DNA of 6,114 bases from Prevotellaceae bacterium (GTDB taxonomy: Bacteria; Bacteroidota; Bacteroidia; Bacteroidales; Bacteroidaceae): NCBI GenBank assembly GCA_021204715.1, contig JAJPYW010000032.1:1-6114 (forward strand), in the 5' to 3' direction. The notes below the pieces were generated by a model, which searched no databases, was not told the DNA's origin, and saw nothing but the letters and a program-made list of their open reading frames with translations. Shown here one piece after another: positions 1 through 6,114 of this stretch; within the stretch, counting starts at the first letter, position 1; every line of letters begins with the position of its first letter. Both the position numbers and the translations under genes were made by a program.

Positions 1-3000
1 GTTGTATCAAGTCGCTGTAGACCTCGCCCGCCTTCACGAAGGTGAGCAGCACGGAGACGCCTTCGCCGTAGGCCTCTTTATAGGGATAGACCATCCTTGC
101 GAGGGTGTCGCTGAGTTGCAGGGTACGGCTCTCCAAGCGTTTCTCCTTACTAAACACGTCGACGAGCAGGTAGACGTCTTGGCAGGAGGTGCCGTAGTAG
201 ATTTCGGCGGGGTGGGCGGCATCGAAGTCGAGTGTATTCTTAGGACAGAAGCGTGTCATGGGGGCGGCAAGGCGGGTGTCGTTCAAAGAGAAGAGGTAGA
301 TCTCGGCGGGCTTGTCGGTGTCGCTGCCTGTCTCTTCGCCGTCAGCTCCTTTAATGGAGAGTTGTATGCGGTACATGCCCGAAGTGAGGCGGCTCCACTC
401 GGGAAACGTCTGCCGCTTGCCCGATGTGAAGGTAGCTTCATATACGGGCGTCTCTTGGTCTACAGACAGCAGGCGGCAGGTGCCCTGCACGGCGAGCAAG
501 CGGCCGTCGGCGTTCCTCACTTGGAAGGTGGCGGCAAGCAGGCTGTCCTTGCAACAGAAGGCTGGCAGGTCGGTAGTGAAACGGTAGGCTTCGGGCGTGG
601 CCGACAGTGTATACCTGGTGCTCTCTGTCTCGCCGGCCGCTTCGGTGACGGTGGCGGTGACGCGGTAGTTCACGCTCCTGCCGCTTGCAGGATTGTATTC
701 CGCAGGGGGCGTCAGCACGACGGGCAGGCTGAAACTTCCATCGGCGTTAATCTGCACCGTGTCTTGCAACAGCGGAACGGGGTTGCCTTGCCAAAGCAAG
801 CCGGCCGTGCGGCTTACGCTGTAGGCAAGGGGCAGCTTTTGCAAGGGGGCGCCGTTGTAGGCGGTGACGGTGCCGGTGAGCCGCACGGTGTCGCCCAAGC
901 GGTAGGCTTCTTCTATGGGGTTGAAACGGATTTCAAACGTGGGGCGTTTGTAGGCTTCCACGCGCACGGTGGTGCTGCCCGAGGTGCCCGCGCGCAACTG
1001 GAAGGTGCCGTTGAGACAAGCCGCGGGCAGGGTGAAATCGGCACTGAAAGAGCCGAACTCATTCGTCACGAGTGTCTGCTTGGCCACTTCCTTGCGGTTG
1101 GCGTCCAAGAGTTGCAGCTCGTAGCTTTCGCTTGCCAATACATGCACCGTGTCTTCCGCCTCTACGTAAGCCACGCCTTTCACGTGGATGGTCTGCCCCG
1201 GCCGGTAGAGCGCGCGGTCGGTGAGCAGGGTGAGGCGGCGTAGGGGCGTAGTGCCGCGCGTGCCGGCTGTCGGTCGGGTGATGGACTGGGGACGCAGGGC
1301 GGTGTCCGTCCCCTTGGCGGCTGTGTAGCAGCGGATGCCGTTTATCCAAGTGAAGAGGGCTTTGCCTTGGCTGTCGGTGGTTACTTGCAAGAGCGTCTTG
1401 CGCTCCTCTTTGTCTGCCTTGTCGTGGAAGCTGACGGTGGCGCCTTCAACGGGTTGGCCGCTACGGGCGTCAAGGGTGACGACTTCCATTTGGTTGTCCG
1501 GCAGGGCGAGTGTGAGTACTTTCAGACGGGTGACGGCAAGCAGGTGGTCCACACTGTCGGCATGGCTGTCATCGGGTGTTATGCGCAGCAGATAGGTGCC
1601 GGGCGTGGCGGGTATGGATAGAAGAAAGGTGGTGTCGGCGCGTTGGTAAGGCAGGTCTTCTTGGGCTACGCCGGCTTGTGGCAAGGGAGCCAAGGCGTAA
1701 TGGCGCGTGGAGAGCTTGCGGGCATGACGGCGCAGGAAGTTGGATGTTGGTGCGTGCTCTTGTTGAGGCGTTTCGGCAAGGTCGGTGGCGTAAAGTGTAA
1801 TGGAGAAACCATTGAGCAGGCGGTACTGCACGCGCATGGAGAGCGAGTCGCCGGGATAGGCGGTGCCTTCCATGCGCACGGAAAGGGTGGGGCGCAGCAT
1901 CTCCCTGCGCAGGTTCTCCAAGGCTTGGATGTGGGGGTAGGCGGCATGGCGCGCTGTCGCTTCACCGCACAGCCGCAAGGCTTCGGCGGTGCGGCCTTGA
2001 CTGTGCAGGCAGGTGGCTTTGCGCAGGTAGGCTTCGGCGATGAGGTCTATATGACTGTAGCGGGCGATGAGGCTGTCCAACTCGGAAAGGTAGAGGTCGT
2101 CTTTGTTGGTTGAATTGACAGTAGTATAGCCTTCCTGACGGTCTGTGGTATAGCTGTTTTGCAGGGTAACGGCATAGCCGCCCGTCGGTAGAATGGTGTT
2201 CCCGGCTTGCCGCTTCCAGTCGGCATAGTGCAGCCGGGTGAGCAGCACCGCTTCATCGATGCCGGTTTGTGAACTGTCTGCGTGGAGTTGGGTTTTATCG
2301 GCTTTGGTCTGTGCTTTATCTGTCCCGGCTTGTGCTTTACCGGCCATGGCTTGCGCTTCCTCTGCCTTGGCTTGTGCTTGATAGGTGGCGAGCATGGCAA
2401 GGTAGAGGGAGTCTATGCGCGCTCCTACGGGAAACGCAGCGGCATAGCCTTCGATGCTTTGGTACAGGTCGATGGCACGGCGTGCCACAAGGTGGTAGAG
2501 GTCGTGGCGGTAGTAAAGGCTGCCCTCTTCTATTTCGATAAGGGGGACGTAGGCTTGCGCGCGGGCTTGCAACAGCTGTTCGGCATCCTGCAGGGAGGCT
2601 TTGTTATGGGCGTCAATTTGGCGGATGAACAGCCCCGCGCTCCACGTGCGGATGTCTGCGGAAGCGGTTTCTTCCTCTATCTCCGTGCGTGCCTGCAACG
2701 CCCGCCGGTTGTTTTGCAAGTAGTCCCGGTACTCACCGGCCAAGAGCGTGTGCAACAGGGCTTTCTCTATGGGGTTGGCCGTGCGGCGCACCCATTGCTC
2801 CATATAGGCAAGGTGGCTGTAAAGGCTGTCGGGCGTCACTTCTTGCCGCGCTTTCTCCCGGCAAAGGTAGGCTTTGAGCAACTGCGCCGTGTTCCCTTCC
2901 TTTTCGGCTTTGCGGTAGATGTTGTCCGCGAGGCGGATGACGGTCTGGGACAGTCCCTTCTCACGGGCTTCATCCACTTGTTCCCATTGCTTGTCGTAGG

Positions 3001-3076
3001 ATTGGGCGCAAAGGGGCAGCCCCATTATGCAGAGGAGCCACAACAGAAGGCCATATCGTTTCCAACGCTTTCTCAA
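1..3076 (-). CDS. Alpha-2-macroglobulin family protein with MG2 domain, N-terminal part (C-terminus off the window)
   Basis: An uninterrupted minus-strand frame gives 1025 codons from a TTG at 3076 to the left edge, with no stop reached. Residues 1-24 form a signal peptide: basic MRKRWKR, then a hydrophobic stretch ending LCA before QSYDK. There is no lipobox, because Leu precedes Cys23. Residues about 25-390 are helical, with a TPR-like segment near 340-390 and a heptad repeat at 235-269. Macroglobulin-type beta domains follow: one from about 395, a second with LDARSGQPVEGA at 535-546, then the MG2 hallmark TDRALYRPGQTIHVKG at 619-634, and VEAYKRPTFEIRF from 706. Family members in Bacteroidales are often near twice this length; the bait region and any thioester (CxEQ) would lie in the missing half, so protease trapping cannot be judged. 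Expected location is the periplasm or the outer membrane. The start is uncertain: an ATG at 3108 is in another frame (see findings). The long plus-strand open frames across this gene are shadows. Confidence 0.9.
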   Translation of the reverse strand, partial: MRKRWKRYGLLLWLLCIMGLPLCAQSYDKQWEQVDEAREKGLSQTVIRLADNIYRKAEKEGNTAQLLKAYLCREKARQEVTPDSLYSHLAYMEQWVRRTANPIEKALLHTLLAGEYRDYLQNNRRALQARTEIEEETASADIRTWSAGLFIRQIDAHNKASLQDAEQLLQARAQAYVPLIEIEEGSLYYRHDLYHLVARRAIDLYQSIEGYAAAFPVGARIDSLYLAMLATYQAQAKAEEAQAMAGKAQAGTDKAQTKADKTQLHADSSQTGIDEAVLLTRLHYADWKRQAGNTILPTGGYAVTLQNSYTTDRQEGYTTVNSTNKDDLYLSELDSLIARYSHIDLIAEAYLRKATCLHSQGRTAEALRLCGEATARHAAYPHIQALENLRREMLRPTLSVRMEGTAYPGDSLSMRVQYRLLNGFSITLYATDLAETPQQEHAPTSNFLRRHARKLSTRHYALAPLPQAGVAQEDLPYQRADTTFLLSIPATPGTYLLRITPDDSHADSVDHLLAVTRLKVLTLALPDNQMEVVTLDARSGQPVEGATVSFHDKADKEERKTLLQVTTDSQGKALFTWINGIRCYTAAKGTDTALRPQSITRPTAGTRGTTPLRRLTLLTDRALYRPGQTIHVKGVAYVEAEDTVHVLASESYELQLLDANRKEVAKQTLVTNEFGSFSADFTLPAACLNGTFQLRAGTSGSTTVRVEAYKRPTFEIRFNPIEEAYRLGDTVRLTGTVTAYNGAPLQKLPLAYSVSRTAGLLWQGNPVPLLQDTVQINADGSFSLPVVLTPPAEYNPASGRSVNYRVTATVTEAAGETESTRYTLSATPEAYRFTTDLPAFCCKDSLLAATFQVRNADGRLLAVQGTCRLLSVDQETPVYEATFTSGKRQTFPEWSRLTSGMYRIQLSIKGADGEETGSDTDKPAEIYLFSLNDTRLAAPMTRFCPKNTLDFDAAHPAEIYYGTSCQDVYLLVDVFSKEKRLESRTLQLSDTLARMVYPYKEAYGEGVSVLLTFVKAGEVYSDLIQ
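2270..2374 (-). repeat. Imperfect tandem 21-bp repeat encoding five heptads in the macroglobulin-like protein
   Basis: Five consecutive 21-base units encode residues 235-269 of the minus-strand protein. The units run QAKAEEA, QAMAGKA, then three more diverged copies starting QAG, QTK and QLH. Gln opens every unit; Ala is at position 2 and Lys-Ala at positions 6-7 of the middle units. The exact 7-residue period and the Ala/Lys/Glu/Gln composition suggest a helical spacer or short coiled coil in the N-terminal helical region, before the first macroglobulin domain. The DNA copies are similar enough for slippage to change copy number in frame. Confidence 0.75.
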
Positions 3077-3412
3077 TTGATTCCGCTTTTCAGTAAACGC
3101 CGCTTCATTACAAAGCCGGCTTACTTAAAACAAAGAAAGCGAATAATGTGCAAAACCACACGCTGTTTGTTCTTAAAAAAACTTGTTAATCAGAAAATAA
3201 ACAGTGCATTTTCAAATACAAGGCAAGGCTTAGGTATGTTATCCTTATTATAATAGGTATATACATACAACTTAGCTCGATGTAAATACTGTGGCGAATG
3301 ACAAGAATAGAAAACGGAAAGCGCATGCATACGGTACTCATGTAAGGGGGAAAGATGCGTGCGGACAACGCGGATAAAAGACCGTTTACGGTGTGATTTT
3401 GTTTAGCAAACG
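3077..3412. other. Gene-free AT-rich leader between the macroglobulin gene and the inverted-repeat segment
   Basis: No convincing gene is seen here. Composition changes sharply from GC-rich coding sequence to AT-rich DNA. On the minus strand this would be the leader of the macroglobulin gene. I find no exact TAnnTTTG box on that strand between 3109 and 3260, only one-mismatch matches such as TTTCTTTG. A 60-codon minus-strand frame (3368-3186) and a 13-codon plus-strand frame (3355-3396, preceded by AAGGGGG) are open, but neither looks like a known protein. Small palindromes (AAGCCGGCTT at 3113-3122, TATTATAATA at 3246-3255) have no assigned role. Confidence 0.5.
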
Positions 3413-3434
3413 GATACTTCTCTTAGTAAGAGAA
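3413..3434 (+). repeat. Left inverted repeat of the putative switch (22 bp)
   Basis: The sequence is GATAC followed by TTCTCTTA-G-TAAGAGAA. It equals the reverse complement of 3569-3590 over all 22 bases. It is also an imperfect palindrome around the single G at 3426, with 8-bp arms. That central G, against C at 3577 in the right copy, is what makes the inverted alignment perfect and the direct alignment 21 of 22. Confidence 0.85.
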
Positions 3435-3447
3435 AGATTAACGTTCG

Positions 3448-3475
3448 CAAAGATAGATAGTTTTTTGAAAATCAA
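3448..3475 (-). promoter_or_regulatory. Promoter candidate inside the switch, pointing left
   Basis: The minus strand reads TATCTTTG (3455 down to 3448), an exact match to the Bacteroides TAnnTTTG -7 box and followed by C as in many strong examples. A TTG at 3475-3473 lies 17 bases upstream, slightly closer than the usual -33 spacing of about 19-20. Transcription would start near 3443 and pass out through the left repeat toward the macroglobulin gene. Confidence 0.5.
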
Positions 3476-3521
3476 TACATTTCAAATGTTAAAAATGACG
3501 CTTGTTTAGCAAATTGTTTAG

Positions 3522-3550
3522 CAAATCTATAAGTGTATACTGATATACAA
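3522..3550 (-). promoter_or_regulatory. Second promoter candidate inside the switch, pointing left
   Basis: The minus strand reads TAGATTTG (3529 down to 3522), another exact TAnnTTTG match. A TTG at 3550-3548 lies 18 bases upstream, near the expected -33 spacing. It has the same orientation as the box at 3448-3455, and its -7 box overlaps the last GTTTAGCAAA repeat, so a protein bound there could block it. Confidence 0.4.
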
Positions 3551-3561
3551 GCATTTAGGTA

Positions 3562-3592
3562 TCGATACTTCTCTTACTAAGAGAAGTATCGA
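3562..3592. repeat. Right inverted repeat of the putative switch, inside a 31-bp perfect palindrome
   Basis: Positions 3562-3576 (TCGATACTTCTCTTA) and 3578-3592 (TAAGAGAAGTATCGA) are perfect reverse complements around a single C at 3577. The part matching the left repeat is 3569-3590. The palindrome is longer and cleaner than the left copy, whose outer arm has diverged. As RNA it could form a tight hairpin, but no U-run follows, so an intrinsic terminator is unlikely. Confidence 0.85.
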
Positions 3593-3631
3593 GAATGAAA
3601 GTGTAAACTATTATAACGCAATGGAATAACC

Positions 3632-3670
3632 CGTCAAGTGTATAAAAAATGACAATACACGTTTGACGTG
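3632..3670 (+). promoter_or_regulatory. Overlapping inverted repeats at the fixed promoter, possible operator or hairpin
   Basis: CGTCAAGTGTAT (3632-3643) pairs with ATACAC plus TTGACG (3655-3660 and 3663-3668), leaving a 2-base bulge (GT) and an 11-base loop. A second, tighter palindrome, CACGT-TTG-ACGTG (3658-3670), sits on the right arm and is centred on the TTG proposed as the -33 element. The position suggests a regulator site that would compete with RNA polymerase. No known consensus is recognised. Confidence 0.45.
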
Positions 3671-3693
3671 ACTATCGAGATGTTATAAAGTTG
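3663..3693 (+). promoter_or_regulatory. Fixed promoter candidate for the fimbrial operon
   Basis: A TTG (3663-3665, within TTTG) is followed after 20 bases by TAAAGTTG (3686-3693), which matches TAnnTTTG at all but one fixed position. The spacing fits the Bacteroides -33/-7 pattern. Transcription would start near 3700 and leave a leader of about 45 bases before the ATG at 3746. Because it lies outside the inverted repeats, it would act in both orientations of the switch, perhaps weakly because of the mismatch in the -7 box. Confidence 0.45.
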
Positions 3694-3734
3694 GAAAGTG
3701 ACTGATTGAAACATACCGACCAAGTATCATCTAA

Positions 3735-3744
3735 AAAGGAAGGA
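3735..3744 (+). promoter_or_regulatory. Ribosome binding site of the DUF3575 gene
   Basis: A purine-rich AAGGAAGGA run ends one or two bases before the ATG at 3746. It is the clearest ribosome-binding sequence among the genes here and supports that start, which also gives a complete signal peptide. Confidence 0.6.
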
Positions 3745-3745
3745 T

Positions 3746-4339
3746 ATGAAACTAAGATTGGGAATTAATTGTGTACTGCCCGTGTTGTTGCTGCTTGTAA
3801 GTACGCGGGCCGGATGTCAAGAAGTGGCTGTGAAGACAAACCTGTTTTCTGACGCCTTCGCCAACATCAACGTAGGGGCAGAGGCTGCACTTGCCCCAAA
3901 ATGGACGCTCGACCTTGAAGGTGAACTCAATACCTGGACACTCTCGCACGGCAGGCGTTGGAAACACTGGGCGTTGCAGCCCGAAGCACGCTATTGGCTT
4001 TGCGACCGCTTTGGCGGACACTTCCTTGGTGTGCATATACACACCGGGCAGTTCAACATGGGCGGTTTCGACGGCATACTCAACTTCCTTGGTACCGATG
4101 CCCGCAAGCTCAAGGACAGTCGCTACCAAGGGTGGTTCGTGGGCGCGGGTGTGGCCTACGGCTACGATTGGATACTCTCACGCCATTTAAATTTGGAGGC
4201 CGAGATAGGCATAGGCTATTCCTATACCCACTTTGACCGCTTCGATTGCGCCGGATGCGGCAAGAAGGCCGAGGCTGGCAAGTCGCACAACTACGTGGGG
4301 CCCACAAGGGCTGCCGTCAACTTGGTTTATCTATTCTAA
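3746..4339 (+). CDS. DUF3575 domain-containing protein, probable small outer-membrane beta-barrel
   Basis: The 197-residue product begins with a signal peptide (MKLRLG, then a hydrophobic stretch, cleavage likely after Ala22; no good lipobox). The mature part matches my memory of the DUF3575 family: VKTNLFSDAFANINVGAE near 28-45, KWTLDLEG at 52-59, HWALQPEARYWLC at 74-86, GHFLGVHIHTGQFNMGG at 91-107, then WFVGAGVAYGYDW (130-142) and LEAEIGIGYSY (150-160). A CxxC pair (Cys168, Cys171) is visible. It ends VNLVYLF, a C-terminal Phe typical of beta-barrels. Alternating aromatic strands support an outer-membrane location. Its biochemical role is unknown. The DUF3868 gene follows after only 12 bases, so the two are very likely cotranscribed; in Bacteroidales this pair usually opens fimbrial loci, suggesting a part in pilus assembly or anchoring. 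Confidence 0.9.
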   Translation: MKLRLGINCVLPVLLLLVSTRAGCQEVAVKTNLFSDAFANINVGAEAALAPKWTLDLEGELNTWTLSHGRRWKHWALQPEARYWLCDRFGGHFLGVHIHTGQFNMGGFDGILNFLGTDARKLKDSRYQGWFVGAGVAYGYDWILSRHLNLEAEIGIGYSYTHFDRFDCAGCGKKAEAGKSHNYVGPTRAAVNLVYLF

Positions 4340-4351
4340 AACGCATGCAAC

Positions 4352-5941
4352 ATGAAACAGTCTATACACTACATGGCATTGGTGTTGCCGGTTGAAACCA
4401 CATCGGTACAGAAATCGGCGCAGATAAAACAGCCTTCACAATCTGCAGAATTGTCGAGGGGCTTGCTTGTGGCCTTGTCAGCTGCCTTGCTGTGCGGTCT
4501 TTCACTGATTGCCAACGCACAGACAATGGCAGACATAAACAATGGCGAGACGGTGCAGAGCCGTGACGTATCCATCGAGGGAATACAGGAAGTAGTTACG
4601 GATGTCAGTGTGGACTCACCTTCCACGGAACACTACGGTGACGGACTCACCGTAGCCATGCGTCTTGGCCTTGACAACCTGAAGATAAGGAGCAACCAAG
4701 CCGTGCTGCTCACCCCGCGCCTTGTTAACGGAGCCGACTCGCTTGACCTGCCTTCAGTGGGCATCTACGGACGCCGCCGCTACTACTATTACATACGACA
4801 GGGCGAGAGCATGCTCTCCGGCAAGGACGAGGAGAGTTACCGCGCCAAGAGTATGCCGGCTGCCATAGACTACAGCCGCAATGTGTCATGGCGAGCATGG
4901 ATGGACGGCGCCGACTTGTCGTTACGTCGCGAGGATTTCGGCTGTTGCAACACACTGCTTGCACAAGAAGAAGGCTGGTTAGGCCGACACTTGGAAGCGT
5001 TCTCACCCGAGTTAGTCTACGTGCGCCCAGAAGCACAGCGTGAGAAGATCTTCTCACTCGAAGGTTCCGCCTTCATAGACTTTCCCGTAAACCAAACGGT
5101 CATCTACCCCGACTACCACAACAACATGGTAGAGTTAGGCAAGATTGAACTCACCATAGATTCCATACGCAACGACAAGGACGTGACCATTACCAATGTT
5201 TGGTTGAAGGGATACGCTTCTCCCGAAGGTTCCTATCGCCACAATACGGACTTGGCCAAGGGACGCACCGCCTCGCTTGAGAACCACATCAAACAGATGT
5301 ATGACTTCCCCGACTCCATCCTTTCCAACGCTTACGAGCCCGAGGACTGGGAAGGTTTGCGGCGCTATGTGGAATCGTCTACAGGGCTGAACCACCGTGC
5401 CGGCATACTCGAGCTCATTGACAGCGACATGGATCCCGATGTCAAGGAGGCCAAGATAAAGGCTACTTATCCAGACGACTACCGTTTCCTTTTGGAAAAC
5501 TGCTATCCTACGCTGCGCCATACCGACTACAGAGTGTCCTACACTATAAGCTCCTACAGCAACGTAGAGGAGATACGCCGCCTTATGCGCACCTCGCCTC
5601 AGAAACTTTCGCTCGAGGAGTTCTATTTGGTGGCACAAGAATATGAACCGGGTACAGATGAGTTTACCGAAGTGTTCGAAATGGCCGTGCGTCTTTTCCC
5701 CGATGACGAGACGGCTAACCTGAACGCGGCCAACGCAGCCATGAGCAGCGGCGACCTCACGGCGGCCGAGCACTACCTTGAAAAGGCGGGTACCTCGGCA
5801 GAGGCCGCCTACGCACACGCTGCGCTTGCCATCTATCAGCAAGACTTTGACACGGCGCGGGGATACTTGGAAGTGGCCAAGGCACAAGGCTTGCAACAGG
5901 CGGCCGTCACGCTCGATGAGTTAGACAAGGGCAGGCGCTAA
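4352..5941 (+). CDS. DUF3868 / OmpA-like protein with C-terminal TPR-like helices, fimbrial locus
   Basis: The 529-residue product has a hydrophobic signal at about 36-56 ending ANA before Gln57, a classic cleavage site. It is preceded by an unusual polar stretch of about 34 residues. Residues about 70-150 fit DUF3868 (VAMRLGLDNLKIRSNQ, LTPRLVNG, LPSVGIYGRRRYYYYIR). Residues about 234-400 resemble an OmpA-like domain: SAFIDFPVNQTVIYPDY, then an N-x-x-EL segment near 258-262, then the GYASPEGSYRHN motif (287-298) with LAKGRTASLENHI, and a closing strand at 393-399; a helical insert occupies about 320-390. Residues about 418-525 are helical repeats of TPR type. Function is inferred: an exported, probably outer-membrane or periplasmic component linked to fimbria assembly. 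Spacing to the DUF3575 gene is 12 bases with no clear ribosome-binding site. A TTG at 4451 (codon 34) is an alternative start giving a normal 24-residue signal. Confidence 0.88.
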   Translation: MKQSIHYMALVLPVETTSVQKSAQIKQPSQSAELSRGLLVALSAALLCGLSLIANAQTMADINNGETVQSRDVSIEGIQEVVTDVSVDSPSTEHYGDGLTVAMRLGLDNLKIRSNQAVLLTPRLVNGADSLDLPSVGIYGRRRYYYYIRQGESMLSGKDEESYRAKSMPAAIDYSRNVSWRAWMDGADLSLRREDFGCCNTLLAQEEGWLGRHLEAFSPELVYVRPEAQREKIFSLEGSAFIDFPVNQTVIYPDYHNNMVELGKIELTIDSIRNDKDVTITNVWLKGYASPEGSYRHNTDLAKGRTASLENHIKQMYDFPDSILSNAYEPEDWEGLRRYVESSTGLNHRAGILELIDSDMDPDVKEAKIKATYPDDYRFLLENCYPTLRHTDYRVSYTISSYSNVEEIRRLMRTSPQKLSLEEFYLVAQEYEPGTDEFTEVFEMAVRLFPDDETANLNAANAAMSSGDLTAAEHYLEKAGTSAEAAYAHAALAIYQQDFDTARGYLEVAKAQGLQQAAVTLDELDKGRR

Positions 5942-6043
5942 GGAGGCAAATACACTGATAAACATAGAAAGGCATAGACGGTAGAACCACATTAACCAAC
6001 AGGAACATACAAACAGCATAATCAAACGAAACCTCAAAAGTAT
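5942..6043 (+). other. Intercistronic leader before the lipoprotein gene
   Basis: This 102-base gap is A-rich toward its 3' end, as is common in front of Bacteroidales genes. AGGAGG directly overlaps the preceding stop (5941-5946), but no start codon lies at a suitable distance downstream. No hairpin followed by a T-run is seen, so readthrough from the operon is expected. Confidence 0.5.
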
Positions 6044-6114
6044 ATGAAAACAAGGAATTATTTATTTGTATTGTCCGTATGCGCCGCCCTTTGCGCATGT
6101 ACGGATAACGACAC
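6044..6114 (+). CDS. Lipoprotein, N-terminus only; probable fimbrial subunit or anchor
   Basis: The ATG at 6044 opens a frame that runs off the right edge after 23 complete codons. It encodes a short basic start (MKTRN), a hydrophobic core and a lipobox LCAC with Cys19 as the lipidation site, followed by TDND. The acidic residues after the Cys resemble the surface-export signal of Bacteroidetes lipoproteins. Downstream of a DUF3575/DUF3868 pair the expected product is a FimA/Mfa1-type fimbrillin or an Mfa2/FimB-type anchor, both made as lipoproteins, but no domain is visible to confirm this. There is no Shine-Dalgarno sequence; the leader is A-rich (CTCAAAAGTAT). Confidence 0.75.
   Translation, partial: MKTRNYLFVLSVCAALCACTDND

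Follow-up and report, generated by a model that had tools for sequence, protein, structure and literature searches.

A 134-bp segment bounded by a perfect 22-bp inverted repeat, upstream of a DUF3575/DUF3868 operon in the genome of a Prevotellaceae bacterium, is very probably a phase switch: a predicted tyrosine recombinase would flip the segment between its two inverted sites and so turn the operon ON from its present state, predicted to be OFF. The window, i.e. the whole stretch of 6,114 nucleotides that was analysed (contig JAJPYW010000032.1, positions 1 to 6,114), comes from an assembly of 1.74 Mb in 295 contigs that is 71.6% complete (GCA_021204715.1). A sequence-only reading of this DNA had suggested that a fimbrial operon may be controlled here by an invertible promoter. 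This proposal is supported by paired sites whose spacers match when inverted and never directly, by a promoter box inside the segment, by tyrosine recombinases near relatives' loci and on contig C95 of the same assembly, and by segments of orthologous DUF3575 loci that are inverted between fixed flanks. The features are collected in Table 1.

Table 1. Features of the predicted switch, its neighbouring genes and the recombinase homologue (window coordinates unless a contig is named).
Feature	Position	Strand	Remarks
Divergent gene with MG2 (alpha-2-macroglobulin) domain	2-3076	-	left of the switch
Outer accessory motif TTTGCTAAACA	3400..3410	-	8 bp outside left core, operon-distal; candidate fixed arm-type site
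Left inverted repeat	3413..3434	+	core TCTCT-TAGTA-AGAGA at 3419-3433
Segment predicted to invert	3435..3568	.	134 bp; inversion inferred from relatives
Bacteroides-type -7 box TATCTTTG	3448..3455	-	14 bp from left core; consensus match only
Inner accessory motif TTTGCTAAACA	3503..3513	-	56 bp from right core; candidate arm-type site, moves with the segment
Inner accessory motif TTTGCTAAACA	3515..3525	-	44 bp from right core; candidate arm-type site
Right inverted repeat	3569..3590	-	core TCTCT-TACTA-AGAGA at 3570-3584
Leader, right core to operon	3585..3745	+	TAnnTTTG scan
DUF3575 protein, first gene of operon	3746..4339	+	197 aa; E 9.5e-71
DUF3868 protein	4352..5941	+	529 aa; E 1.3e-9
Start of further reading frame	6043..6114	+	lipoprotein-like beginning, by eye; cut by window end
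Tyrosine recombinase homologue	C95 689-1900	-	403 aa; sole Phage_integrase match in the incomplete genome

A repeat search of the window recovered the two arms (complementary at 22 of 22 positions and separated by 134 nt), as in invertons, where short inverted repeats flank a segment of ~100-200 bp. The earlier description of the arms was accurate in its details. Aligned as direct repeats, 3413-3434 and 3564-3585 agree at 21 of 22 positions (95%), with a mismatch solely at the centre, and each copy is itself nearly palindromic (in copy 2 the 15-nt arms 3562-3576 and 3578-3592 are 100% complementary). Given such near-palindromic copies, whether the window repeats are inverted or direct hinges on one base, and it is the relatives that decide. 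The five-base spacers of the two window cores, TAGTA and TACTA, are reverse complements of each other.

Further copies of the repeat, which the sequence-only reading had proposed to look for, are present in the same genome: the core 17-mer with up to two mismatches occurs in eight places (C8, C16 (two), C111 (three), C246 and C264), and a reversed-pattern control in none. The exact 17-mer is absent from all 98 other genomes of the genus searched, and relatives reveal the site class only to a pattern with an unconstrained spacer. A paralogous element on C111 matches window positions 3398-3623 (81% over 226 bp) and has a promoter box at the corresponding position. This element (201-489) contains three sites (240, 391 and 474), of which the first and third form the more extensive inverted pair, and the contig terminates before the left-hand gene; its multiple repeats are reminiscent of the several inverted repeats reported at the Tsr19 locus of B. 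fragilis. The ends of C246 (10188-10241) and C264 (8384-8437) have in common a terminal sequence starting at a TCTCTTAGGAAGAGA site, and pattern search found no partner site near either. The two contigs differ in gene content (aromatic amino-acid genes and polysaccharide genes, named by reading), and their common end could be a repeat or an assembly fork at another switch, or else two orientations of one segment.

For the family-wide search, a pair was defined as two TCTCT-N5-AGAGA sites with a gap of 131-191 bp, so that the arms are fixed by the pattern and the spacer is free. Pairs were matched in 33 of 158 genomes of the genus (control, 0) and at the order level in 14 of 392 (control, 1). 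The genus matches together with the genome's own contigs gave a set of 51 pairs in 46 loci. The spacer is the exact reverse complement of its partner in 46 of the 51 pairs and a direct copy in none, which rules out a direct-repeat reading; when spacers were re-paired between loci in 10,000 shuffles, exact inverted matches averaged 3.0 and never exceeded 11. Strand exchange between inverted sites requires just this, a spacer that agrees with its partner in the inverted orientation only, and the direction of a site is, judged from these sequences, given by its spacer and not by the palindromic arms. Spacer sequence varies from locus to locus. The core, which the sequence-only reading could not place among described recombinase sites, belongs to a class of sites, with the refinement that the spacer is locus-specific rather than part of one fixed sequence. 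There is no sign that spacers avoid each other within a genome: in the 11 genomes that hold two or more exact pairs, the spacers agree in 3 combinations and are different in 13, and the chance of sharing from the pool is 0.066.

The five pairs of the genus set that violate the spacer rule are one in the own genome, on C8, and four with a third site. In the C8 pair (218-430) the spacers CGGTA and TATTA do not match, and it is perhaps a decayed switch, or two sites from different pairs. Loci with a third site beside a matched pair (L093, L097, L098, L101 and L249) have a differing spacer in the pairs tested, and are possible multi-step switches.

A scan of named genomes matched at least 117 stretches, of which 80 are listed, 60 of these loci being labelled as Bacteroidales or a family thereof and 20 otherwise. 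Among the matches listed, the Bacteroidales-labelled loci have 62 pairs, 60 of them exactly inverted and none direct; the rule is broken by L201 and by a third-site pair at L197. Among the hosts are Phocaeicola vulgatus ATCC 8482, P. massiliensis, Bacteroides finegoldii and Paraprevotella clara. The other 20 loci, again among the matches listed, hold 22 pairs (2 inverted, 5 direct) and comprise 11 from Caulobacter as well as Saprospiraceae, “bacterium P3”, Firmicutes and further labels. The two inverted pairs (L153 and L158) may be real switches, since they also carry the accessory motif described below. In Caulobacter (L143, L157, L164, L166, L169, L178, L180, L181, L184, L194 and L206) the pattern recurs without obeying the spacer rule, and these matches probably stem from another, unrelated palindrome of the genus. 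The genus and named sets overlap, such that 106 exact pairs reduce to 100 distinct ones among the matches listed. Pairs lie closer to contig ends than a uniform distribution would have it (45 loci, KS p 0.015), and in assembly G082 all four pairs are within 103 bp of a contig end; contig breaks at pairs are only suggestive of mixed populations, as repeats also break assemblies.

Promoter boxes recur at a similar place in these segments. In 42 of the 46 exact genus pairs a TAnnTTTG box is found 8-24 bp inward from a site (the other 4 have none there), as it is, among the matches listed for the named set, in 53 of 60, with 48 of those at 13-16 bp. By operon, the 46 genus loci are divided into 17 with UpxY capsule regulators, 13 with DUF3575/DUF3868 (the window counted) and 16 untyped. 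Where both the operon and the promoter direction are clear, 21 are OFF and 6 are ON, which argues against a fixed promoter, since this would not mostly face away from its operon. In the window, the box TATCTTTG reads left, away from the DUF3575 operon, and a second TAnnTTTG box, TAGATTTG, is on the same strand 88 bp from the left site. The present orientation is therefore predicted, from the direction of the box, to be OFF, and inversion would turn the box toward the operon. No full TAnnTTTG match is found on the + strand at 3591-3745, where two boxes have one mismatch. As it stands, the segment promoter points at the divergent MG2 gene, with only one-mismatch TAnnTTTG boxes in between, and a flip might also affect that gene.

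The assignment of the downstream genes to a fimbrial-type operon, made earlier from the window, is supported: the DUF3575 and DUF3868 genes lie to the right of the segment on the + strand, and pilus genes follow the same gene pair in relatives. In L091 and L102 the pair is followed by genes for a Fimbrillin_C protein and an Mfa2 anchor protein, and in L097 by those for an unmatched protein and Mfa2; from this order in relatives the window operon is taken to be pilus-type. The fimbrillin and Mfa2-type anchor genes by which a Type V (Mfa/Fim) pilus is recognised would lie beyond the window end and are seen in relatives only, and the frame cut by that end is probably the next pilus gene.

Orthologous loci, each oriented by its operon, were compared, with the segments scored in the same and in the inverted orientation. 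A locus of recombinase, switch and DUF3575 operon is common to four species (L102, L104, L107 and L125). Between L104 and L107 the flanks align in the same orientation (497/583 toward the recombinase and 499/549 toward the operon), while the segment scores 107 inverted (126/162) and 16 in the same sense, with a shuffled maximum of 26. L102 and L125 against L107 likewise score 73 and 67 inverted, and 19 each in the same orientation. L102, L104 and L125 are mutually in the same orientation (55, 201 and 75 same versus 20, 26 and 17 inverted). At a further locus, L096 against L120, the segment scores 72 inverted and 16 same between aligned flanks (136/165 and 262/347). A comparison of L115 with L120 also scored 72 inverted, yet the flanks align poorly and it was left out of the count. 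Segments are thus inverted between fixed flanks at orthologous pilus loci of different species, and as such flips lie between species, the inversion is dated only loosely. A reversed copy of the window's own locus, which the earlier reading had suggested seeking in related genomes, was not found: the best match of the region in another genome of the genus spans 75 bp, so there is no close relative for comparison and the flips come from other loci of the family, from which we infer flipping in this strain.

A tyrosine recombinase is encoded within three reading frames, at a distance of 19-461 bp, at 26 of the 46 loci; the other 20 are without one in that range, some since the contig ends there. 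The search for a neighbouring recombinase suggested from the window had a divided outcome, in that none lies near the window pair or on its contig, and a homologue lies on C95. The C95 protein shares 46-62% identity with 27 site-linked enzymes (those of the 26 loci and that of L056), with the identities for five short enzymes computed over 259-302 residues. R252, K278, R351, H374 and Y383 are conserved across the aligned recombinase rows, and would have catalytic roles. Within the genus, the C95 protein is most similar to proteins of G043 and G102 (66-67%), and G043, a single-contig genome, has a DUF3575 switch (L091) without a recombinase within three reading frames. The three recombinases scanned, that of C95 included, contain Arm-DNA-bind_5, SAM-like and Phage_integrase domains. 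Short recombinases of 297-323 aa, without the N-terminal arm-binding region, occur at L102, L104, L106, L107 and L125. By homology, the C95 enzyme is the candidate for acting on the window switch in trans; other recombinases may be absent from the 71.6% complete assembly.

An accessory motif, TTTGCTMAACA, occurs at fixed places beside and between the cores. Oriented segments (109, reduced to 99 clusters) were searched with one mismatch allowed, and contain the motif 41 times in 35 of the 99 clusters (0.8 expected from shuffles), with 4 on the other strand. Inner matches are found 56-59 bp from the promoter-distal core in 28 cases, with groups at 44 (2), 67-68 (6) and 79 bp (3). A phase test of these positions (0 of 2000 random sets) assumes uniform placement as its null and is driven mostly by the 56-59 cluster, and it is the small groups that carry the argument for steps of ~11 bp. 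Outside the sites of 131 pairs, the motif read outward lies 7-10 bp out in 36 cases (at exactly 8 bp in 30), and otherwise 3 times elsewhere within 100 bp and once in the opposite sense. In the genus set, the outer motif is present in 20 of the 46 exact pairs, opposite the operon in 10 of 10 typed matches, and in 16 of 17 it lies toward the recombinase. At the ON locus L120 it is beyond the promoter-distal site, as expected for a fixed flank element. The motif accompanies 13 of 22 arm-domain recombinases and 1 of 5 arm-less ones, a weak association (Fisher p 0.16), and four of the five arm-less cases are orthologues at a single locus. Enrichment is also seen for another motif, CTGATWWWCAG, which frequently lies 20-32 bp from the distal site.

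The tyrosine recombinases lambda Int and IntDOT are arm-site (heterobivalent) enzymes, which integrate and excise. The present system is similar in its Arm-DNA-bind_5 domain and in the fixed placing of the motif beside and between cores, and differs in that local inversion, not integration or excision, is proposed, with arm binding predicted only. The TTTGCTMAACA copies are accordingly candidate arm-type sites. It is possible, if on balance somewhat doubtful, that the switches are arm-site recombination machines rather than simple two-site flip-flops. The arm domain would then grip the fixed outer motif and the inner copies, which travel with the segment and are set about one helical turn apart; the complexes formed in ON and OFF would differ, so that the DNA would encode a bias of direction, here toward OFF; and with self-matching spacers, a single trans-acting enzyme could work many surface switches across Bacteroidales, each with its own address.

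In the mechanism that we propose, a recombinase from the family that neighbours 26 of the 46 loci would bind the arms and exchange strands across the spacer, and for the window sites the 403-aa C95 protein would do so in trans. After inversion the -7 box would be 14 bp before the right core, and transcription would run through a leader of ~160 bp into the DUF3575 gene. The outer TTTGCTMAACA copy, fixed outside, and the two inside may serve the N-terminal domain of the recombinase as arm-type sites, whereby ON and OFF complexes would differ in geometry.

Three other explanations deserve weighing against this mechanism. The window locus might be a locked former switch, with sites inherited from a working inverton whose own recombinase gene was lost, and with no flipping in this strain. 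This would account for the promoter facing the OFF direction and for the missing neighbour gene, a state found at 20 of the 46 loci, some of them at contig ends. However, the 22-bp arms are still identical, the genome keeps a recombinase homologue with conserved catalytic residues, and the available passages of two reports describe, in B. fragilis, a single enzyme that acts on both a local and a distant promoter (PMC4747536) and, in P. vulgatus, a promoter that inverts despite a defective local recombinase (PMC13114119). We therefore regard a locked switch as unlikely.

The cores are near-perfect palindromes, one of them ~14 bp downstream of the -7 box, and might be operators, at which a dimeric regulator binds both palindromes and represses or loops a fixed promoter without any inversion. 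Operators have no need for a variable centre that is exactly reverse-complementary within each pair, and they leave the neighbouring recombinases and the inverted segments at orthologous loci without a use, making this a very improbable account. Slimmer still is the chance of a small mobile repeat (MITE-like), spread by transposition with the palindromes as its ends. The 81% copy of the region on C111, and the sequence common to the single sites at the ends of C246 and C264, are what such an element would leave, but the segments of relatives differ (109 reduce to 99 clusters), whereas the distance between sites, the place of the promoter and the genes around it recur. Inversion by a tyrosine recombinase is thus the reading that we retain.

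The window switch is a further case of the known invertible promoters of Bacteroidales, of which the tsr15 locus of B. fragilis, reportedly described by Weinacht in 2004, is among the Tsr type. In the parts of the literature available, small invertible promoters are usual upstream of upxY operons in gut Bacteroidaceae, frequently with a recombinase gene upstream (PMC13114119, PMC12632263), and one of these reports (PMC12632263) cites a fimbria-like locus of B. fragilis that is phase-variable. According to the available text of PMC4747536, Tsr19 (BF2766; IVp-I, IVp-II) of B. fragilis flips a local and a distant promoter. The Tsr type resembles the present class in its promoter segment between inverted repeats, its TAnnTTTG -7 box and its tyrosine recombinase (likened by description in that text, not by site sequence); unlike Tsr19, the window is without a local recombinase, and the text available for Tsr-type promoters makes no mention of a spacer rule or an accessory motif. 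The upxY capsule locus (PS locus) of Phocaeicola vulgatus CL10, as far as it is described in the available text of PMC13114119, resembles the present class in a recombinase gene upstream of the invertible promoter and in a promoter facing a surface operon. While 17 of the 46 loci of the present class are upxY loci, the window operon differs from these capsule loci in being pilus-type. The Mpi promoters at the PVR loci of B. fragilis and B. intestinalis are similarly small (183-186 bp in B. intestinalis), but their repeats are GTTCGTTTAA or ARACGTTCGTN (available text of PMC8375218) versus TCTCT-N5-AGAGA here, and Mpi is a serine recombinase, in contrast to the tyrosine recombinases that neighbour the present sites. 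The available part of a survey reports 146 inverton repeat groups (PMC11892184), and the TCTCT-N5-AGAGA class may well be already among published inverton motif groups. A search of open-licence text (figures and supplements being outside its scope) for the repeat and motif letters gave nothing relevant, open-licence literature text had no match for the spacer rule or accessory layout, and no title or abstract in that literature describes arm-type or accessory sites at invertible promoters.

The signature described here, TCTCT-N5-AGAGA pairs 131-191 bp apart with self-complementary spacers, finds switches without the need for reads. Should the TTTGCTMAACA copies prove to be arm-type sites, they would offer a testable reason why switching by one recombinase could favour OFF over ON without a second enzyme. 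With the window switch, a pilus-type operon joins the surface structures whose expression in Bacteroidales is apparently controlled by DNA inversion.
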